From assembly GCF_963576615.1 (NCBI RefSeq), contig NC_088716.1, positions 3,658,001-3,722,000 on the forward strand: a DNA stretch of 64,000 nt, in the 5' to 3' direction. The position numbers were made by a program, and so were the translations under genes. This document shows, in pieces, positions 18,801 through 56,663 of the stretch. A model generated the notes under the pieces. It saw only the letters and a list, made by a program, of their open reading frames with translations. It searched no databases and was not told the DNA's origin. Position 1 is the stretch's first letter. Every line of letters begins with the position of its first letter. The stretch is from Watersipora subatra. Lineage: Eukaryota; Bryozoa; Gymnolaemata; Cheilostomatida; Watersiporidae.

Positions 18801-21800
18801 TTTGAGGCTAACTGAAACTACTATATCGTAGCTTGCTATTGGTAAAAAAAAGTAAACAAAAAACGGCATTTAGCTAACCAGAAACGGCAATAATAAAATA
18901 CGTTACCGAAACGACAAAAACGTCGCACTGCCCATTAGCAGCCGTATCGCAAAGCGACAAAAACGTCGCACTGCCCGCGAAAGGGTTAAAGTTGTTCGTA
19001 GCTTGTTACAGGATGTTTATAGGCTGAACACCAAGAAAAATGAGCTCAAAGAAGCGCGATTTTACCACAAGCTAGCGTTGTTAGCTAGCTAGCGTGCTTT
19101 TTTGAGCTCATTTTTAAATATGCAATGTTAAATCTACCTTTCAGAAAAGACACATTATTTTAAAAGCTGAATATAGATAATAATAGGTTTTAAGACACCC
19201 ATCCCTATCATTCTAAATCGGACTAATCATAGTTAACAACTTCCATTACTAAAAAACTAGCGTACATCACGTATTTATGGGCGAAGCTTGTTGTGCCGAT
19301 CGTGTTGTTTTCGAGACCGATATTAAAGCCTTCATTACTCTGAAAGTTAGTGGACCAATCTTTATTTTGAGTACAAAATCGGAATCAGCGTGTCTTATTT
19401 ACCTAGTAAATACGATAAAAGTTGTACGTGACAGTTATGGTTTAGGTCTAGATTTTCATTTTTGTATGGCCAAAGAGGTGAGTTTGGAAAGATCTTGGAA
19501 TGGATTAGGTAGTTTACAAGCATTTTGCTGTTCTTAAAATGTAAAATACCATAGACTAAATACCTATAACATAGATGTAGCGCCTACTGTATATATATTG
19601 AAATTTATATACCTACGTTATGTATATATCTATGTATATTGAATATCTATGTACAGTGGTGTGCATAAACTTGGAATCACCAGTTAAATCTTCAAATATG
19701 TATGTTTATATGCTGTTGTCTAAGAAATTCTTTGGAGTTAAGTGCCTCAACCCCATCAATATATATATCATTTGAAAGGGAAAATTCTGAAGAACAAGAT
19801 GATGCCAGATATTCGAAAATATTCTCAGATTTTTATCGCTGGGGTGGATCTACCGAAAGGCAGACTTATTGCAGGCTATGAATGTTGTTAGTGAAAATTG
19901 ATAAAATAGGATACAAACAAACTCTTTTATACAAATTGGTGGCCCTGAAAAGGGCCACCAATTAATACACCATAATTAATCTGTTTACAGATTAATACAC
20001 CATAAGTAAAACCACCAATTAATACACCATAATTAAAACACCATTATTAATCTGTTTAATAGGATTAATATAATTCACTCAGAAATGAGTGTGTAAAATC
20101 AATCAATGCATTGTTTGAAAGCACATCTTCTGCTGATCAGATTGATATATAATATCTGGCATGGCATCATAATTGGCGGGAAAATAGAAAGCAAATGGAA
20201 GATCCATTCGATATAGAGTGAACAAAACAATGTGATTCCAAGTTTATGCACACCACTGTACATCTATGAGGCCCACTTTGCATATGGCAATACTCTGTAT
20301 TTTCAGTATCGCAGTCTCACTGACAGTTCATTTATTAGAAAATAAGTGTATCTGCAAAAAATCTTATGTTGCCTGTTGTACACCTATCAGCCAATAACAA
20401 AGGGAAATAAATGGTCTGCTACAAATTTTATCTTATGAGATTCGACAATAAACCATGACCATGATTCCTGTTGAAAGTCCTGGCATGAATGCAATATTAT
20501 AAGTAGTCATGCAGTAACGCTTCATGCCTAGCGCGCTTAAAGAGTGCCAAGAATTTGGGTCGCAAAATAGAATTTGACAAACAGAACACCTGATAGTTGT
20601 GTATAAAACTGTTTAAACTCGCCTGCTGCGTCTCCTCTCATCCTTCACTCTGCTTTTTGCTTTCTTAAGTTCCCTAGAGAAGTCATCGTCATCATTTCTG
20701 TACCTGTCCCTTTCCCGGTCTCTCCCCTCTGATCTGCTCAAACAGTTACAAATGACCATCATACGACTGCAAAGCTTAAATATAGACACCGTACAAGTGT
20801 GAAAGATAGACATTCTACTGCGGGTGTGAGAGATAAACATTCCAATACTGACAGGTGAGAGATAGATACCCTACTACAGGTGTGAGAGATAGACATTCTA
20901 CGGCAGGTGAGAGATAGACACTCTACTGCAGGTGTGAGAGATACACGATCTACTGCAGGTGAGAGATAGACATACTACTGCAGGTGAAAGATAGACACTC
21001 TACTGCAGGTGAGAGATAGACACTCTACTGCAGGTGAGAGATAGACACTCTACTGCAGGTGAGAGATAGACACTCTACTTCAGGTGAGAGATAGACACTC
21101 TACTACAGGTGTGAGAGATAGACACTCTACTACAGGTGTGAGAGGTAGACACTCTACTTCAGGTGAGAGATAGACACTCTACTACAGGTGTGAGAGATAG
21201 ACACTCTACTGCAGGTGAAAGATAGACACTCTACAACAGGTGTGAGAGATAGACACTCCATTAAAATACCTGTGAGAAGAATGAGATGACTTGCTGGAGT
21301 ACTTGTCCCTATCCCGATGCTCTCTGCTATCTCTCCCATCTCTTCCATCTCTGCCTGAATGCCTCGAGTGACGGTCCCTTTCCCTATAAGCATCTCTATA
21401 CCCATCCCTGGGTAACTCCCTTCTCGGTTCCTCATGCCTTTGCTTCAACCTCATCTCTCGCTCTTCCTTCTCTTTCTCAACCCTGCAGTTGTAGCAATAC
21501 AACAATAACTAAAGGGTCAATAAGTGCACGAGGAATGCTACAGTGAGTATCAAAAATGGTGACGGTAGATCAATACTTACTTTTCCATCTCAGCACGGGC
21601 TGCCTCCTCCTGGTACTGCTCCTTGATGGATGGTCCATATTCTTTCATGTTGGCCACAATAACCTTTTGGATAGGAACAGGGATACGAGGAAAAAGGGCA
21701 CCAAACCAGTCCAGTTTCATCAGAAAGTCCCTGACCATGTCACCCATATAAATGACGAAACCCCCGCCAGCCTTTACGTCTATCTCCTGCGCAAGACACA

Positions 21801-28871: not shown

Positions 28872-28894
28872 ACCAAGCAACATGACCAATGACA

Positions 28895-28978
<84 letters not shown>

Positions 28979-29001
28979 TGTCATTGGTCAAGTTGCTTGG
29001 T
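28872..29001. repeat. (TA)n flanked by inverted arms
   Basis: ACCAAGCAACATGACCAATG and CAGC on the left, then about 39 TA units, then the complement ending TTGCTTGGT on the right. The whole 130 bp is one near-perfect palindrome. Confidence 0.9.
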
Positions 29002-29049
29002 CATATATATATATATATACATACATATATATATATATATATAAATTTG

Positions 29050-29617
29050 TTTCTTCACCCCGATTAACCCGTATGAGTGGTAAATTCTGCTCTAACTCGA
29101 GTCTCCTACCAGAGACCTGGGAGTTTGAGCACTCGCCTCAAGATCTTAGCTGTTCCCAATAGCGCACTTTTCTGCAATTCACCTGAGTTGATTGTTGTTG
29201 GTATTTGGGCAAGCCACATTTTATGCGCCGGTGTTATTGCACCCAGTGCCCCAATGACTACTGGAATTACAGTTGTTCTTACATTCCAGCATTTTTCAAT
29301 CTCTTCTCCAAGAGGGAGATATTTCTCTACCTTTTCTTTTTCTTTGCTGGCTATATTGTAGTCATTGGGTACTGCTATATCTATTATAGTAGCCCTCTTG
29401 TTCTCCTTGTCTACCACCACAATATCTGGTTGGTTTGCTAGGACATGCTTGTCAGTTCGGATGTAGAAGTCCCAGAGGGTCTTAGCGTGGTCATTTTCAT
29501 TGACCTTACCAGGAGCTTCCCACCAGTGTTGTGGTTTATTAGGGCCATACTCATCACATAGACTTCTATACACAACACCTGCGACATGATTATGCCGCTC
29601 AGTGTATGCGTTTCCTG
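29050..29617 (-). mobile_element. LINE 3' end (restriction-like endonuclease type), 5' truncated
   Basis: The C-terminus and short 3' UTR of a LINE, cut off at its 5' side by a TA microsatellite (29618-29642) and followed on its 3' side by another TA tract (29005-29043). This is the form expected of a 5'-truncated insertion into a TA repeat. Confidence 0.85.
29106..29617 (-). CDS. LINE restriction-like endonuclease domain, C-terminal fragment
   Basis: The frame reads [45 protein letters not shown] and [17 protein letters not shown], then [17 protein letters not shown] and [14 protein letters not shown]. The PDIVVVD and IIDIAVP blocks are the PD-(D/E)xK nuclease signature found after the reverse transcriptase in R2/NeSL/Hero-like LINEs, where it nicks the target DNA. 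The frame is unbroken to its stop, so this insertion is fairly young. Only the last 170 residues remain. It is probably the same broad group as the LINE at 1-1255, but the two pieces do not overlap, so this cannot be tested here. Confidence 0.85.
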
Positions 29618-29642
29618 ATATATATATATATATATATATATA

Positions 29643-30765
29643 CAGTCAAACATGGATAACTCGTCCACGGATAGCTCGAACACATGGTTAATTCGAACAT
29701 TTCCTTTGGTCCGTTCCCACGTAATGATAAATTGCTATAGATAACTCGAACTCAACACTGTTAATTCGAACTGTTTTTTTGCCCAACAGCTACCGAAACG
29801 GTTGTTTTCGCTTTATAAAATCACTTTATTCAAAGCCATAGAGGTAAACTCCATCTTTTCGTAATTCATAAGCGTCGTTATTACCACCATCGGCAAAATA
29901 TTTTTGTCAACGACTTTTCTAAAAGTTTGGTGAAATTTGATTTATACTGCGATACGATGAATAGCACGGGCTAGCCGGGTCACGCGTGCAAGAATTTTCG
30001 CCACGCACATACAAAACAAAAATCGCATGTTGTTTTGTATGTGCGTGGCGAAAATCCTTGAGTGCGTGACTCGGCTAGCCCGTGATGAATAGTTTTCCGA
30101 CGTTGATTCCGTGTTGAATCAACGTCGGAATGTTGAATGTTTAAAACGTCTTTAAAAAAATGTTGTAATTAAACGTACACGTTGTCTGAGCTACAAAAAA
30201 CTATTCATCGTTTGACCTAAACACAGAATACGTGTGTACATTCAATAAGTATCTATTAAAAAAGCGTGAGTGATATAGAATGTACCGTAAAACCTCGTAA
30301 AACTTCTAATTGAACTACCGCGGAGTGTTGCTCTTAACGAATCCCAGGTAAAGTAAGGTAATCTGCATAAACTTCAAGAAAAAACGGCAAAATTGATCGT
30401 GGGTAAAACCCCAAAAGAAAAAAATGTCTTTTCTTTTGAGCATTTCAACAACGATCAAGTTTTGCCAATGTCAATCTGAAAAACGTCCTGGCAATAACAT
30501 CACCTCAAACAACAAACCAATCTCAAGTGATAGAAAAATCTCTATACTTTTTCATGAAAACGTTTTAAACTTGACATTAGAAGCATTTAATTTGAAACAA
30601 GCCATTTGTGCTTTTGATTTATATTATAGTTTGTATATGTACATGTATCTACTAATAAATAAGTAAATATATGGACTTGTGACAGTGCTCTGATAACTTG
30701 AATGCTCTGATAATTCGAACACTTTTGCTCGGTCCCTTGAAGTTCGAGTTATCCATGTTTGACTG
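29643..30765 (+). mobile_element. TA-target element, copy 2
   Basis: Termini CAGTCAAACATGGATAACTC and GAGTTATCCATGTTTGACTG with TA on both sides; it sits in a TA microsatellite. Length 1123. Nearly identical to the copies at 42565 and 55544, so it moved recently. A 75-80 residue open frame (30424-30666) recurs in all copies but resembles no transposase; its DNA is a diverged half of the long-TIR family at 4455. It needs a transposase from elsewhere. Confidence 0.92.
29965..30084. mobile_element. 120-bp foldback nested in the TA-target element, with its own 8-bp duplication
   Basis: Arms of about 54 bp start CACGGGCTAGCC and end GGCTAGCCCGTG. ATGAATAG lies directly on both sides (29957-29964 and 30085-30092), as for a hAT-like insertion. 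The same hairpin is in all four copies, so it entered their common ancestor. A second perfect hairpin with 15-bp arms (TTCCGACGTTGATTC) follows at 30095-30130. Confidence 0.85.
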
Positions 30766-30780
30766 TATATATATACTCAT

Positions 30781-30826
30781 GCTACAGACAGTACTGTTTC
30801 GGCTATTGAAGCCTCATCAGTGCAGC
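30781..30826 (-). ncRNA. Type I hammerhead ribozyme, copy 1
   Basis: Minus-strand parts in order: stem I strand GCTGCA, core CTGATGA, stem II GGCT-TCAAT-AGCC, core GAAA, stem III CAG-TA-CTG, cleavage triplet GTC, stem I strand TGTAGC. Stem I pairs over 6 bp with one G-U. All catalytic core residues match the consensus. Predicted cleavage is after the C of GTC, between 30787 and 30786. The 3-bp stem III with a 2-base loop is typical of forms that cut best as dimers. Confidence 0.9.
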
Positions 30827-31039
30827 TCACAGCTTAGGCAAGGGACACAAATCCCATTACCAATGAGAGTTGACTTCCTGTCACGAAACAACTAAGTTGC
30901 CTCGCAGACTTTAAGAAAGTCAATGTGCTGGCACCAGAATGCTCAAATCACAAAAGTGATGAGCTTTGCACAAAGGCTAATAGTGCCGCACCTCTCACAG
31001 AGTGCTCAACCAAACCGAAGTAAGGGAGCATATACTCAT

Positions 31040-31085
31040 GCTACAGACAGTACTGTTTCGGCTATTGAAGCCTCATCAGTGCAGC
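31040..31085 (-). ncRNA. Type I hammerhead ribozyme, copy 2
   Basis: Identical to the copy at 30781 over all 46 bases, exactly 259 bp away. Predicted cleavage lies between 31046 and 31045. Cutting at both sites would release a 259-nt monomer from a minus-strand transcript. Confidence 0.9.
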
Positions 31086-31272
31086 TCAGAGCTTAGGCAA
31101 GGGACACAAATCCCATTACCAATGAGAGTTGACTTCCTGCCACGAAATAACTAAGTTGCCTCGCAGACTTTAAGAAAGTCAATGTGCTGGCACCAGAGTG
31201 CTCAAATCACAAAAGTGATGAGCTTTGCATATATATATATATATATATATCTACTATATATATATATATATA

Positions 31273-32229
31273 TATCTACTATATAAACGGCAATCGTTGT
31301 GTGTGTGTGTGTGAGTGTCCGCCTTATAGAGTACCGTACTTTTCCGACTATTAGCCGCTACTAGGTATCTAGGGCGCGTTAACGGGATTCTCCGGTTATT
31401 GCGCCTCATAACCTATTCATCGTTTGCCGTTTTCACCCCAAAATGACGTAATAATGACAACTACGGCTTTCTTTTAGCTACATGACACGCGATGCTTTTT
31501 TGTCCTCGAAGTATTAGGGCTAATTTGTTTTCGGCAAAACGATATCGACAATAGACTCTCTCGATATTAGAATTTGGCGACTAAGTTTTATTAATTCTAT
31601 GAAACACGATGCCGTTTTTGTGAACCTCTATTTCTGGCTTTTCTTAAGGTTCAATTGCTAAATCGCTGTTAAGGTCACTACTTTTCACGCGGACAATAAT
31701 GTATTATCTCGAGTAGGAGTAACATCTATATTCTCTCACCTTCGATCAGACAAAGACACTACAACAATTTACTTTTACATAACATATCGTTGTAGCAGTA
31801 TCGTCGTATTCAGAGTTTTGGTGGATATCTGTTGGTGGAACAGTAACTTTTTTATACACACTTATGCAAGAATTGTTATTATTAATTCAACATATTCACG
31901 AATGTTATTTTGTTTTCTCAGTTTGTATCATTACCGAATCATCTCATATTGTAATCGTAGCAAAACAGACTCGATTTAGCTATTACTTGCTAATTATTTC
32001 ACTGTTACATCTAAACCCTTTATAGACGTTTTATTTTTAAAGATTATTTGACCTGCACGAAACCTTTTTTGTCATTATATGAAGTTTAAAAGTAGTTTGA
32101 CAAAGTAAATTTGAAACCCTTCACAGTTGTTTTAGGTAAAATGGCAAATGTTGTTATATGTTAAATACAAATCAATTTTTTGTTCAGTGTTTTTTTTATT
32201 ACCCGGGCAACGCTGGGTTGTACAGCTAG
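31273..32229 (+). mobile_element. Non-autonomous Helitron
   Basis: Starts TCTACTATATAAACGGCAAT followed by a GT-rich run. It ends with a small hairpin (ACCCGGGCAACGCTGGGT) about 7 bases before CTAG, the layout of Helitron 5' and 3' ends. The base after CTAG is A rather than the expected T. Its 3' half is similar to 34330-34784. Confidence 0.65.
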
Positions 32230-40800: not shown

Positions 40801-43800
40801 CTTTAAAAAGTCTCGCGACCAAAACCGGAAACAAAAACGTCCGATTCCAAACAAACTCGATCGACATACTGATCTATAATGGAATATTCATACCTCACTC
40901 TCAATACCGCTCTTTTTTGCATTTACTTTACGTTTTTACAAAAACGTTGTTAGCACCTTTTTGTAGGAAATTTTGTTTTCTTTCAGATGGTTTATGATAC
41001 AACAATCAATTTCAAAATGACTGCTAATGGGAGTAGTTTTTGTTGATTGATGTTGCGACCTCTCCATTATAACTTATATAAAAATAGTAGGCGTGGCCTG
41101 TTTGTTTGGAATCGAGCGAGATCCCGTATACGCTTCTGTTAGTCGCGGGACTCTGTGAAACTATACGGCTCTGGATGAAGAGGGTCTAGATTGACTGGTT
41201 GCTTCTCTGCCAATATTCCTGCCTTGATGAATATTACTACTTGTCTCTAGTTTTCGTAATCGGAGTAGGTTGTTTCATTCTCAATTTGCAGTAAACACAA
41301 AAAAGAAAAAAATATTAAAGTGTTACGGAAGTAAAAAAAACAATAGCTGAAGTATTTAATGACAGCGATCAGTTTTTAAACAAAAGAATTAACTAATGCA
41401 GTTAATTATGGAAAAACGTATCTGCACTGCAAATCAAATACATACCAAAATGTCCAGATCAGAATCATGATCGTCCTCAACTTCGGTATTAGAGATTGAT
41501 GGGGTTGATTTCAATGTAAAAAGACTAGGAGAGATTTTTTGCGATGATGAAGCCATGCCGAATAACTTGTGAAAACCTTGAATAATTTTGTAAAGAAGTT
41601 CGATGCAATGGCAATAAAACTCGAAGCCCGGCGATGATTTTAAAGAAGTTTTGGAACTCGGCTACGTTTAGTACTTCTGTCTAGCGGCTATTTTTGCGAT
41701 GACGCCATTCTGCATATCTTGTGACAACCTTGAATAATTTTGTAAAGAAATGTGATGCATTGGCAATGGTGTTAGCTCAAAGCCCAGGCAATGATTTTAA
41801 AAATGTTTTGGAACTCAACTACGTTTAGTATTTATATTAAAAACTAGCCTAGCAGCTAGTTTTTAATTTGATGCAGTAGTTATTTTCCCTTGTAATTAAA
41901 AATAGAACTAATTATTCACAGAATTTAATAATTCGCGGAATTGATTGTTCGCGAAATCGCGAATTTTTATACCCAACGAATATTTTCATCCTGTAGGGTA
42001 TCGGATGGGCTATATATATCGGATGTGCTATATCTATCGGATGGGCTATATATATATCGGATGGGCTATATATATCGAATGGGCTATATATATATCGGAT
42101 GGACTATATATATATATTGGATGGGCTACATACATTGGATAGGCTATATATATTGAATGGGCTATATATATTGGATGGGCTATATATATGAAATGGGCTA
42201 TATATATTGAATGGGCTATATATATTGGATGGGCTATATATATTGAATATGCTATATATATTGGATGGGCTATATATATCGGATGGGCTATATATATCGG
42301 ATGGGCTATATATATATTGGATGGGCTATATATATCGGATGGGCTTTATATATATTGGATGGGCTATATATATCAGATGGGCTATATATATATTGGTTGG
42401 GCTATATATATATTGGATGGGCTATATATATTGGATGGGCTATATATACATTGGATGGGCTATATATACATTGGATGGGCTATATATATTGGATGGGCTA
42501 TATATATTGGATGGGCTATATATATTGGATGGGCTATATATATTGGATCGGCTATATATATATACAGTCAAACATGGATAACTCGTCCACGGATAGCTCG
42601 AACACATGGTTAATTCGAACATTTCCTTTGGTCCGTTCCCACGTAATGATAAATTGCTATAGATAACTCGAACTCAACACTGTTAATTCGAACTGTTTTT
42701 TTGCCCAACAGCTACCGAAACGGTTGTTTTCGCTTTAGAAAATCACTTTATTCAAAGCCATAGAGGTAAACTTCATCTTTTCGTAATTCATAAGCGTCGT
42801 TATTACCACCATCGGCAAAATATTTTTGTCAACGACTTTTCTAAAAGTTTGGTGAAATTTGATTTATACTGCGATACGATGAATAGCACGGGCTAGCCGG
42901 GTCACGCCCGCAAGAATTTTCGCCATGCACATAAAAACAAAAATCGCATGTTGTTTTGTATGTGCGTGGCGAAAATCCTTGAGTGCGTGACTCGGCTAGC
43001 CCGTGATGAATAGTTTTCCGACGTTGATTCCGTGTTGAATCAACGTCGGAATGTTGAATGTTTAAAACGCCTTAAAAAATGTTGTAATTAAACGTATACG
43101 TTGTCTGAGCTACAAAAAACTATTCATCGTTTGACCTAAACACAGAATACGTGTGTACATTCAATAAGTATCTATTAAAAAAGCGTGAGTGATATAGAAT
43201 GTACCGTAAAACCTCGTACAACTTCTAATTGAACTGCCTCGGAGTGTTGCTCTTAACGAATCCCAGGTAAAGTAAGGTAATCTGCATAAATTTCAAGAAA
43301 AAACGGCAAAATTGATCGTGGGTTATACCCCAAAAGAAAAAAATGTCTTTTCTTTTGAGCATTTCAACAACGATCAAGTTTTGCCAATGTCAATCTGAAA
43401 AACGTCCTGGCAATAACATCACCTCAAACAACAAACCAATCTCAAGTGATAGAAAAATCTCTATACTTTTTCATGAAAACGTTTTAAACTTTACATTAGA
43501 AGCATTTAATTTGAAACAAGCCATTTGTGCTTTTGATTTATATTATAGTTTGTATATGTACATGTATCTACTAATAAATAAGTAAATATATGGACTTGTG
43601 ACAGTGCTCTGATAACTTGAATGCTCTGATAATTCGAACACTTTTGCTCGGTCCCTTGAAGTTCGAGTTATCCATGTTTGACTGTATATTGGATGGGCTA
43701 TATATATTGGATGGGCTATATATATTGGATGGGCTATATATATTGGATGGGCTATATATGTATATTGGATGGGCTATATATATTGGATGGGCTATATATA

Positions 43801-44006
43801 TTGGATAGGCTATATATATATATATTGGATGGGCTATATATATTGGATAGGCTATATATATATATTGGATGGGCTATATATATTGGATAGGCTATATATA
43901 TATATTGGATGGGCTATATATATGGGATGGGCTATATATATTGGATGGGCTATATATATATTGGATGGGCTATATATATTGGATGGGCTATATATATTGG
44001 ATGGGC

Positions 44007-44038
<32 letters not shown>

Positions 44039-44675
44039 GGGCTATATATATATTGGATGGGCTATATATATTGGATGGGCTATATATATATATATATATA
44101 TATATTGGATGGGCTATATATATTGGATAGGCTATATATATATATTGGATGGGCTATATATATGGGATGGGCTATATATATATTGGATGGGCTATATATA
44201 TTGGATAGGCTATATATATATATATTGGATGGGCTATATATATTGGATAGGCTATATATATATATTGGATGGGCTATATATATGGGATGGGCTATATATA
44301 TTGGATGGGCTATATATATATTGGATGGGCTATATATATTGGATGGGCTATATATATTGGATGGGCTATATATATATTGGATGGGCTATATATATTGGAT
44401 GGGCTATATATATATATATTGGATGGGCTATATATATATTGGATGGGCTATATATATATTGGATGGGCTATATATATGGGATGGGCTATATATATATTGG
44501 ATGGGCTATATATATGGGATGGGCTATATATATATTGGATGGGCTATATATATGGGATGGGCTATATATATATTGGATGGGCTATATATATGGGATGGGC
44601 TATATATATATTGGATGGGCTATATATATGGGATGGGCTATATATATATTGGATGGGCTATATATATTGGATGGG

Positions 44676-44746
<71 letters not shown>

Positions 44747-47700
44747 GGGCTACATATATTGGATGGGCTATATATATGGGATGGGCTATATATATATATA
44801 TTGGATGGGCTACATATATGGGATGGGCTATATATATGGGGAACAGATGAAACCAGTTATCTTTGTTTCTATTCTCAATCCCTTTTATTTTATTGCGGAG
44901 AGTTTGAGGTGTCAGCTTTCAGTTTACACAAAGCGATGTTTATGCTGCCAGCACTTTTCTCACAAACATTTCACTGTAGATAATTTTTGGACAATTGCCA
45001 CTTTAAAAGCTATTTAACTACCGCTCTTGTCTGTGAATTTGGATGTTTGACAGATTGATACAGCACGCTGTTGATGTTGTGTTCGCTTAATGTTTGTCAT
45101 TGCTTGAATTCTCTCAAGGTTCAGGGATTACAATGCATGAAAGTCGTATTTAAAATTGAGAGAAATACCATAAACTGGTTGCATCCACCAAAATACATGG
45201 CTGTATTTGATATGACCATCATTACAGGAAGTTGCTAGGCTGTGAAGCGCAACATGTTTTTGAATTGCATTCTATAGCCTTATCTTACAGACAGGACCAG
45301 GAGGAATGTGCTTTTCCCAAGAATATTTCGAGTTGGACTGTTCATGGCCTGTGGCCCTCCGTAAATGAATCTTATCCCGCTGGCTGTAATAATTCCTGGT
45401 CGCTTAACAAATCTACGATTGATCCACTCTTGGATGAAATGAGAGCCAAATGGCCGACTCTGAATTGTGAGATGCTACCATATATCATGTAATAATCTTA
45501 GTGGTAGGCAGAGACAAGACTAAGTGTGCTTTTTGGTTTCGCAACACACTTGCGTACATGTGAGACATTCTGATTTTAGTTGTATACCCCTTGTATTTTT
45601 AGGGAAATTACGGTAGCGTTTGTTGTGATTGATGTACAGTAGATGTACCCCACAATGTAAATAATCCGATTCGAGAATGCTTGTGTTATACGAATTCTAC
45701 TATTCTTTCACATGTATTTTATTTATTGTTTTATTATATTATATTATTATTTATATTTATTGTTGTATTTATTATTTATTTATGCAAAGCATTAAATACA
45801 TGTCAATAGCCTAATCTGTTACAAGACCTTTTTCTGGTGTTCAAAAAAGAACAAAAGCTAAGCCTATCTTCTAAATGTAATGACAGTACAGTAACTGTTG
45901 TATTGTTAGTTTATATTGACAACGTTCTTCTTCACTTTCACTCTGATTATGGTAGTTTTATGGCAGGTTAGTTACGCACACCTTAAATGTAAATTTCAAT
46001 CAATCTCGACAGCAAGGTGTATGCTGCAGAGACAAACAGAAAAATATTTTATATTGTAAAATAAAGTAAAAGAAAAATACATCTTTACCATAATAAGCGT
46101 CTGTCTGTCCATCTGCCTGTCTAAAGCCAGGGTTAGAGGTCAGAATAAAACAACTTTCAACAAGAATCGTGACATTAATCTCGGTAGACCGACTCTAACA
46201 CCTGCGGCAATCAACTACCTTGTAATAATTCTGAATACTTGTGCAGCAACTTATTCTCTGCGCTTTATCGATACACCAGGCGATCTTTCATGGCACACTA
46301 GACTACCGGCGCACTATTATATATTAGAAATACCCTTATGCCTATATTACAATATATTTATAATGAATATTATTATTATATTATATTTAGCAAATAAGTT
46401 TGATGTATGCTGAAAACGTTTTGATTTGTTCGTCAGAAGGAACATATAGGGGATAACTCCAAGTCTATGTGACAAGCACTAGACTAATTGAAATGATTAC
46501 AACATACATGTAGTTCATTTCAAAAGAGATATTTTTTCGATAATCAATCACCCCAAACCCAGCTAGGGTATATTTAAAAAATCTAAAAGCACATTAGTGG
46601 CTGCAGTGCAGTAATCACTCAATTTCGCTGTTAGTCGGGGCCGGCCGACCCAGACGAAAATTCCAAATCCGTGAAATGGGAACTTATAAACTCATCTAAT
46701 AAAACCACTTTTAGGGATGTTTTTCATGGTCGAGGATGTTTGAGAGGCATGATGAAGGATGTTACAAGCACTTTACATATTTTACACAGTGTAATAAAAA
46801 CAGCGAACTGCGATGACTGCTATCACAAATGCTCGCGAAGTTACAGGAATACATAAATCTCTCTAATACTCAGCTGGTGGCCAGATTATGAGAGAGATTT
46901 ATGTATTTTACGTACTTTTGTTTGATTATTTTTATCCAATCTCTATAATTTGTAATTAATATTTTTTTACTGGTGAAGTACTGACAGCGCTTAAGCTGAA
47001 CCCTGAAGTAGCAAGGGATTACTCTAGTGCACTTTAACTCTCAGACCATCTAAATAGAGCTTTGGTGCAAAAGATTATAAATTTTCTTAACAAACAAAGA
47101 CGTATCAGCAAACATCAGGCCTGCTCAAAGTATATATAGACTATGGATTTTACTCTATGGATTTTACTCTATAGGTTTTACTCTATGGATTTTACTCTAT
47201 GGATTTTACTCCATGCATTTTACTCTATGGATTTTACTTTATGGATTTTACTCTATAGATTTTACTCAATTGATTTTAGATGCCTTTTTTACTCATTCTC
47301 TGTGTCTATTTTATTATTGTCAAATTAAAAAAATTATTTTATTGGTAATAAATTAAATTTGAGATCTTTAGTGATGAGCTTTGGAATAAAATTCTATCAA
47401 TTCAGCGACCTTTTTTATCAATAGGAGGTTTTCCTAAGCCGACTGGTGGCTATCACATCATCAGTGCTCCATGTTCTTTTAATGGTCATCCATCTGGTTT
47501 CTAAAACCATTTTCCATAGAACTTCTCAAGTTGCAAGTTGTCTTTCAGCTTATTGGGAAGGCCAAGTCTTCACAATTCATGGTTTCTTGTTCCTTGCATT
47601 CTTAGGTGGGTATCTGTTGTAGTCAATCCTGAGGCAACGTCATGGGAATTCTGGGAGCACGAATGGTCCAAGCATGGGACATGCGCAGCAAACGTCAGCA

Positions 47701-55543: not shown

Positions 55544-56663
55544 CAGTCAAACATGGATAACTCGTCCACGGATAGCTCGAAAAAATGGTTAATTCGAACA
55601 TTTCCTTTGGTCCGTTCCCACGTAATGATAAATTGCTATAGATAACTCGAATTCAACACTGTTAATTCGAACTGTTTTTTTGCCCAACAGCTACCGAAAC
55701 GGTTGTTTTCGCTTTAGAAAATCACTTTATTCAAAGCCATAGAGGTAAACTTCATCTTTTCGTAATTCATAAGCGTCGTTATTACCACCATCGGCAAAAT
55801 ATTTTTGTCAACGACTTTTCTAAAAGTTTGGTGAAATTTGATTAATACAGCGATACGATGAATAGCACGGGCTAGCCGGGTCACGCGCGCAAGAATTTTC
55901 GCCACGCACATACAAAACAAAAATCGCATGTTGTTTTGTATGTGCGTGGCGAAAATCCTTGAGTGCCTGACTCGGCTAGCCCGTGATGAATAGTTTTCCG
56001 ACGTTGATTCCGTGTTGAATCAACGTCGGAATGTTGAATGTTTAAAACGTCTTAAAAAATGTTGTAATTAAACGTATACGTTGTCTGAGCTACAAAAAAC
56101 TATTTATCGTTTGACCTAAACACAGAATACGTGTGTACATTCAATGAGTATCTATTAAAAAAGCGTGAGTGATATAGAATGTACCGTAAAACCTCGTAAA
56201 ACTTCTAATTGAACTGCCTCGGAGTGTTGCTCTTAACGAATCCCAGGTCAAGTAAAGTAATCTGCATAAACTTCAAGAAAAAACGGCAAAATTGATCGTG
56301 GGTAAAACCCCAAAAGAAAAAAATGTCTTTTCTTTTGAGCATTTCAACAACGATCAAGTTTGCCAATGTCAATCTGAAAAACGTCCTGGCAATAACATCA
56401 CCTCAAACAACAAACCAATCTCAAGTGATAGAAAAATCTCTATACTTTTTCATGAAAACGTTTTAAACTTTACATTAGAAGCATTTAATTTGAAACAAGC
56501 CATTTGTGCTTTTGATTTATATTATAGTTTGTATATGTACATGTATTTACTAATAAATAAGTAAATATATGGACTTGTGACAGTGCTCTGATAACTTGAA
56601 TGCTCTGATAATTCGAACACTTTTGCTCGGTCCCTTGAAGTTCGAGTTATCCATGTTTGACTG
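55544..56663 (+). mobile_element. TA-target element, copy 4
   Basis: Same ends and TA flanks as the copy at 29643, length 1120, nearly identical, again with the 120-bp foldback. It lies upstream of GSKIP. Confidence 0.93.

Follow-up and report, generated by a model that had tools for sequence, protein, structure and literature searches.

In a 64,000-nt stretch of the Watersipora subatra genome (hereafter, the window), we found a minus-strand insert that carries two complete type I hammerhead ribozymes and belongs to a large, dispersed family whose members, in a sample from one contig, nearly all end at one point and pass there into (TA)n microsatellites. We consider it very probable that the family is a non-autonomous, non-coding retrozyme, copied from a self-cut circle into (TA)n by a reverse transcriptase acting in trans. 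The dispersed tandem copies, the fixed 3' end, the scattered 5' truncation and the mostly homogeneous units all agree with the retrozyme identity that a preliminary description had proposed from the window alone. We class the element as a putative new family within a known kind, the animal non-LTR retrozymes.

Structure of the insert

Comparison with other copies defined the bounds of the insert and the position of its parts (Table 1). The tandem arrangement with two ribozymes stands as first described, its extent being corrected from two units to 1.77. The two units had been said to differ at only a few bases, all outside the ribozyme; the differences are indeed few (four of 195 shared positions), and one of the four sits in the outer part of stem I. 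The partial unit departs from the family consensus at one base and the full unit at three, which upholds the earlier suggestion that the insert is young. The 259-nt unit has a GC content of 46% and is non-coding, the longest stop-free frame of the circle being 37 codons in the sense and 66 codons in the antisense direction. Nothing like an LTR, a primer-binding site or a polypurine tract was noticed in the 459 bp. The TATAT at the 3' end of the insert would mark the start of reverse transcription.

Table 1. Coordinates of the retrozyme insert and its parts in the window
Feature	Position	Strand	Remarks
Retrozyme insert	30771..31229	-	459 bp = 1.77 units of 259 nt; bounds from comparison with other copies
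Truncated 5' end of insert	31229	-	From comparison with other copies
3' end of insert	30771	-	Ends in ..GAGTATAT; from comparison with other copies
Complete 259-nt unit	30775..31033	-	In phase with the insertion end point
Upstream type I hammerhead ribozyme	31038..31086	-	57.3 bits, E 6.9e-13
Downstream type I hammerhead ribozyme	30779..30827	-	57.3 bits, E 6.9e-13
Predicted cleavage site 1	31045..31046	-	GTC^TGTAGC; established hammerhead rule
Predicted cleavage site 2	30786..30787	-	GTC^TGTAGC; established hammerhead rule
CTGATGA	30814-30820 and 31073-31079	-	
GAAACAGTACTGTC	30787-30800 and 31046-31059	-	
Stem I GCTGCA/TGTAGC	30821-30826/30781-30786 and 31080-31085/31040-31045	-	
TATAT	30771..30775	-	Copy of the unit's sole TA run; inserts pass from repeat into (TA)n here
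Leftover target TA tract	30766..30770		Between retrozyme 3' end and inverted-repeat end of a DNA transposon
(TA)n / CTAC microsatellite	31230..31285		Target, 5' side of insert

Detection and validation of the hammerheads

The two ribozyme segments are letter-for-letter identical and lie exactly 259 bp apart. At the end of each unit the hammerhead elements follow in the order CTGATGA, stem II (GGCT/AGCC, loop TCAAT), GAAA, the palindrome ACAGTACTGT, C17 and the closing of stem I (GCTGCA/TGTAGC). C17 falls at 30787 and 31046, with predicted cuts on the minus strand at 30787/30786 and 31046/31045. A structural descriptor scan of the 64-kb window returned these two sites only, the same descriptor giving 0.005 matches per window on 200 first-order Markov sequences.

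Searching the window against Rfam gave no family at the gathering score. Hammerhead_HH9 appeared below threshold when 601 bases were searched (21.7 and 20.5 bits, E 0.008 and 0.019), and was absent at E values up to 1 when the whole window was searched. At gathering score, Rfam likewise matched none of six phage loci with hammerhead stems I and III intact, and none of five loci holding the retrozyme or a Penelope-like element (PLE). Since six full-stem phage hammerheads were missed as well, the Rfam miss in the window is uninformative.

A covariance model built from phage hammerheads gave a different picture. Scanning IMG/VR for the 25-nt core, including stem-loop II, found it in 27 contigs (L103-L129), and in every case the core is part of a complete type I hammerhead whose stem I has 6 bp and whose stem III has 3-9 bp. 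Nineteen of the 23 distinct phage sequences were aligned, with L109, L112, L116 and L126 dropped for long stem III or loops. Stem I covaries strongly in this alignment, as 36 cells were changed on both sides versus 9.6 in shuffles (0 of 500). The resulting model scored both window sites at 57.3 bits (E 6.9e-13) and nothing else in the window up to E 1; it did not find, in the loci given to it, the hammerhead of the PLE or those of two other hammerhead-like families. The phage hammerheads resemble those of the retrozyme in their 6-bp stem I and in the 25-nt core with stem-loop II, the latter identical by choice because it was the search word; unlike the retrozyme, they occur as one match per contig, their stem III is mostly longer and their stems I and III have other sequences. 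Because the phage sequences were found through the shared core, only stems I and III provide independent support.

Two complete type I hammerheads are present at 30771-31229: the core elements and the 259-bp spacing first read from the letters are borne out by the sequence, the descriptor and the phage-built model. The preliminary description had proposed a covariance-model score as its check and the lack of a hit above threshold as its refutation. Such a refutation would have misled, as the Rfam scores remained below gathering and the phage-built model recovered both sites.

Stem III had been drawn as 3 bp closed by a TA loop, which is wrong in detail. A 2-nt loop is sterically impossible; stem III consists either of A15.1-U16.1 and 2 bp with a GUAC tetraloop, or of a 10-bp duplex between two ribozymes. 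In single-strand folding, the minimum free energy (MFE) structure (-15.9 kcal/mol) pairs the core ACUG with the CAGU of stem III, versus -12.3 for the hammerhead fold. The two-strand MFE structure (-40.6) is exactly the dimeric hammerhead with a stem III of 10 bp. As stem III is both weak and palindromic, the ribozyme would probably work as a dimer; dimeric activity has been reported for weak-stem-III hammerheads of amphibians (PMC7229834). The closed unit is predicted to fold at -92.3, compared with -71.7 (sd 5.1) for 100 shuffles (z -4.0), and in the predicted MFE structure of the circle the ribozyme core adopts an alternative, non-hammerhead fold.

Genomic copies and insertion record

Counting copies throughout the genome, a check that the preliminary description had suggested, revealed a large family. 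The assembly (783.7 Mb, 239 contigs) contains 1036 exact copies of the 40-nt ribozyme, 497 and 539 on the two strands, and the reversed-pattern control gave 0 occurrences; among the dispersed copies retrieved, tandem arrays reach about seven units. Single and partial copies are found on at least nine large contigs (C1-C6 and C8-C10 among the places listed).

We characterized insert boundaries in a sample not ranked by similarity, namely every place on contig C1 in the exact-ribozyme list (61 places, L041-L087), which yielded 42 inserts. A few of these are neighbours without the exact ribozyme, and L071 and L072, which look like one duplicated locus, were both counted. Three inserts of contig C2 were added, giving 45 in the boundary comparison.

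The 3' ends of the C1 inserts are nearly invariant. All except that of L082 (41 of 42) lie within 7 nt of one point, and the final 14 letters are identical in 29 of the 42. A (TA)n run of at least three repeats begins 11 nt past the cut in 29 inserts, 9-14 nt past it in 11 others and 24 nt past it in one; one has none. The end point coincides with the sole TA run of two or more repeats in the 259-nt unit, a UAUAU run 11-16 nt past the cleavage site. In 31 of the 42 inserts, TA steps make up 80% or more of the 20 nt beyond the 3' end, a level reached by 0.66% of 5000 random 20-mers from the window; by the same measure, nine of 42 have a TA flank on the 5' side.

The 5' starts are consistent with uniform placement along the unit (KS p 0.32). 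Insert lengths range from 50 to 1756 bp (0.19 to 6.78 units), with 25 of the 42 inserts at 259 bp or longer and six at 518 bp or longer. The search for target-site duplications gave 15 own pairs of 87, compared with 12.3 (maximum 20) in permuted pairs, and, with a stricter cut, nine compared with 5.0 (maximum 9), so that own pairs do not clearly exceed the permuted ones.

Palindromes in which two arms enclose a TA run (X-(TA)n-X'), resembling the product of a strand end that folded back and primed its own extension, were observed at the 5' flanks of several copies (L008, L015, L021, L049, L071 and L085) and at window 28883-28990. A strict scan found them at seven of 87 5' sides and at none of 87 3' sides, and a loose scan, which admits many weak cases, at 28 of 87 and 10 of 87, respectively. 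One of 11 TA runs in the window also has this form.

Homogeneity of units within loci

We compared 88 full units from 51 loci, a set that mixes similarity-ranked loci with the C1 set and in which loci were chosen by intact ribozyme or by similarity. Units differ on average by 0.94 within loci (70 pairs) versus 10.4 between loci (3758 pairs), a contrast reached in none of 2000 permutations. Two arrays of six units supply 30 of the 70 within-locus pairs and lower the mean; averaged per locus (19 values), the difference is about 1.8. Nine of the 19 multi-unit loci show zero variation among their units. Among these nine are L031, with six identical 262-nt units sharing nine derived changes, and L080, with six identical units sharing six. 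L025 is a counter-example, its units differing by 9.0 inside the locus compared with 10.4 between loci.

Derived variants found inside loci comprise 15 that are private and 26 that are also seen in other loci, 12 of the 26 falling in alignment-edge columns; among variants common to all units of a locus, 15 are private and 38 are shared with other loci. We had considered the within-locus variants as proof of mutation after insertion and set this aside given the mixed outcome. We read the recurrent ones as hot-spot mutation, a reading that these counts cannot prove. Local unequal exchange could also homogenise long arrays.

Template and mode of copying

These observations suggest the following course. 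Multimeric transcripts would cut themselves at GTC^TGTAGC, probably as pairs of hammerheads joined through their palindromic stem III; the resulting 259-nt monomer would then be closed into a circle. A reverse transcriptase acting in trans would nick a (TA)n microsatellite, and the TA-ended primer could meet the single UAUAU run of the circle, 11-16 nt past the closed cleavage site. Synthesis of cDNA would make a varying number of turns, between 0.2 and about 7 to judge from the copies retrieved, and stop at no fixed position. The outcome would be a tandem with a fixed 3' end, a pattern that the copies display and that this mechanism may account for. Activity of the ribozyme and formation of the 259-nt circle are predicted here from sequence. 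Reads across the back-junction had been proposed as a check, yet joining 30787 to 31045 gives the very sequence that the uncut array has in the genome, and such reads are therefore a weaker test for a circle than they look.

The insertion record discriminates among the possible templates and modes of spread. In 41 inserts the sequence continues through the cleavage site, which rules out a linear cleaved monomer as their template. The crossed cut site, lengths above one unit, a single start and scattered stops are together as expected from target-primed copying of a circle. An uncleaved multimeric transcript, copied from its last UAUAU with the parental array reproduced as is, would account equally for inserts that cross the cut site. 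It gains some support from a lizard PLE, for which in vitro insertion is reported to be no lower with a mutated ribozyme and RNA that has not been processed is considered the main substrate (PMC11167929), and from the roughly 14 within-locus variants that recur in other loci once edge columns are omitted. Nevertheless, we regard this template as unlikely: nine of 19 multi-unit loci have identical units while the loci differ from one another, so that an uncleaved template needs homogeneous parents, and the locus-specific unit length of one array (262 nt, six times) likewise demands a homogeneous parent array.

Two further explanations dispense with a retrozyme altogether. An ordinary satellite, spread by unequal exchange and bearing a hammerhead-like motif by chance, would be tandem and homogenised as these arrays are, but it is very hard to reconcile with copies, single and partial ones included, that are dispersed over nine or more large contigs and have one fixed end with (TA)n and the other end scattered. 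As an account of dispersal it is refuted, and unequal exchange could still have added whole units to some arrays. Two fixed ends would be expected of a DNA transposon, or of a Helitron-like element, that carried tandem repeats inside, and our first similarity list seemed to give just that. This was rejected as a bias of the ranking, because in the full C1 set the 5' ends are spread over the unit; we attach next to no probability to such an element.

Candidate donors of the enzyme

The loci selected for the retrozyme also contain three other hammerhead-like families, one of them in an element with a 709-aa open frame. In L130, this frame lies between two copies of the same hammerhead, the upstream one being incomplete because the retrieved sequence ends within it. 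Pfam gave no significant domain on the frame itself; PF26215 is present in most of the 120 relatives listed, together with GIY-YIG (PF01541) in a single one (P0001, named from Solemya velum), and PF00078 is present in another (P0113). From the domains of these relatives and the reverse transcriptase (RT) and GIY-YIG motifs in the frame, we take the element to be a PLE. A search of the genome gave 136 matches of 3518 candidates, many of them >95%, and its exact hammerhead occurs 124 times.

We sampled 20 of these 124 hammerheads (all 13 on C1 and the next seven on C2). Nine are insert ends, and in each of them the element gives way to a TA run at CAA|ATAT, 43 nt past the cut (the run being interrupted by a C in L140 and L148). 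The remaining 11 read on into the ORF side with the sequence CAAATATTTCATACTCC, L149 having one changed base. Five further copies (L015, L026, L035, L093 and L100) end alike. The nine concordant ends indicate that PLE copies, too, start inside their own RNA, at an AUAU tract past the hammerhead. By eye, the 3' ends of the retrozyme and the PLE show no similarity.

We lean slightly towards this genome's PLE as the likeliest enzyme donor, as it has a hammerhead of its own and its inserts show matching geometry in the same kind of target. The fuller proposal, in which the PLE protein moves ribozyme-made circles in trans, nicking (TA)n, setting a TA primer on a UAUA tract a fixed step past the closed cut and generating tandems by rolling-circle, target-primed synthesis, is put forward only tentatively. 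If true, all that mobilisation demands of an RNA would be a hammerhead with a UAUA tract close by, a signal common to the autonomous PLE (cut+43) and the non-coding element that parasitises it (cut+11).

The enzyme could instead come from the genome's (TA)n-specific LINE, presumably R2/R4-like judging from its C-terminal motifs, a donor that we consider rather doubtful. This LINE has an RVT_1 match at E 2e-28 (Pfam). All 150 copies scored, of 8256 candidates, are 96-100% alike to the copy in the window and ORFs reach 1171 aa, which indicates that it is young. It also shares the target, since by eye TA runs follow its 3' end in seven of eight LINE-selected loci, the eighth (L096) having a palindrome in place of (TA)n. 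On the other hand, no hammerhead was seen in it, and the ..AAACAA(T)n with which it stops ahead of the TA run resembles the 3' terminus of a linear RNA. A circular template lacks such a terminus and requires synthesis to start internally, as has been reported for a PLE (PMC11167929). Microsatellite-specific LINEs are known (PMC4640811).

Relation to known retrozymes and PLEs

Animal non-LTR retrozymes, as described by Cervera and de la Pena (2020, PMC7229834), share with the present family a complete type I hammerhead core and stems, head-to-tail repeats of 150-450 bp with one ribozyme per unit (here 259 nt), low GC (under 45-50%; here 46%), a non-coding, dispersed organization from dimers to long multimers, and the presence of hammerhead PLEs in the same genome. 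The satellite 2 and axolotl retrozymes of amphibians, in the same text, further share the short stem III with a palindromic tetraloop and are reported to act better as dimers; their unit is about 330-353 nt versus 259 here. The family differs in its fixed insertion end at a UAUAU run in (TA)n, of which we found no description in the available portions of that paper. A wider search, limited largely to openly readable papers and hence weak as a negative, met no account of animal retrozymes inserting at a fixed point paired with (TA)n.

Hammerhead PLEs resemble the retrozyme in having the hammerhead upstream of the insertion end, internal initiation, an AT-rich target, partial tandems and palindromic junctions (PMC11167929, PMC3846280). 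Internal initiation and AT-rich targets were described for a lizard PLE by Frangieh et al. (2024, PMC11167929), who report a start not homologous to the cut target DNA; AT-rich targets, partial tandems and palindromes of Penelope are described by Arkhipova et al. (2013, PMC3846280). The insertion record of the retrozyme works like that of a PLE. The retrozyme itself is not a PLE, since its unit has no ORF for reverse transcriptase and GIY-YIG. Its end also lies closer to the cut, at 11 nt, versus 43 nt in the PLE of this genome and about 85-92 nt in the lizard PLE (arithmetic from PMC11167929).

The 2020 paper leaves open which enzyme spreads retrozymes and where the copy starts, with PLEs as a strong candidate (PMC7229834). 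The junction record obtained here shows one start point and one target type, most arrays consist of a single sequence, and the genome also holds a young PLE with a hammerhead, an open frame and matching insertion geometry; together these make the donor question biochemically testable with named parts. Separately, we considered whether the element is a LINE-mobilised SINE and rejected this, as the LINE 3' end AAACAA(T)n and the retrozyme end GAGTATAT are, by eye, not shared.

Neighbouring features

Among the other hammerhead-like families, the second (L047, L087 and L099-L102) has an exact 39-mer that occurs 14 times in the genome; its copies lie within palindromes and in most cases continue into TA repeats, with a PLE fragment adjoining in L087 and L100. 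A third hammerhead-like motif was observed at L006:1240-1450, in a near-perfect inverted repeat running into (TA)n.

Within the window, a 5'-truncated copy of the abundant (TA)n-specific LINE occupies 29041-29620 on the minus strand, flanked on either side by TA runs. Inverted terminal repeats (CAGTCAAACATGGATAACTCG..) bound three stretches of about 1.1 kb, at 29643-30765, 42565-43684 and 55544-56663, each holding a hairpin that Rfam scored, below threshold, as mir-3118; the retrozyme directly adjoins the first of them. Arrays of an 18-bp repeat (TATTGGATGGGCTATATA) span 41999-42561 and 43685-44837, the latter beginning exactly where the second 1.1-kb stretch ends. A histone 3' stem-loop match at 19919-19956 on the minus strand scored below threshold, with 26.8 bits against a gathering score of 34.
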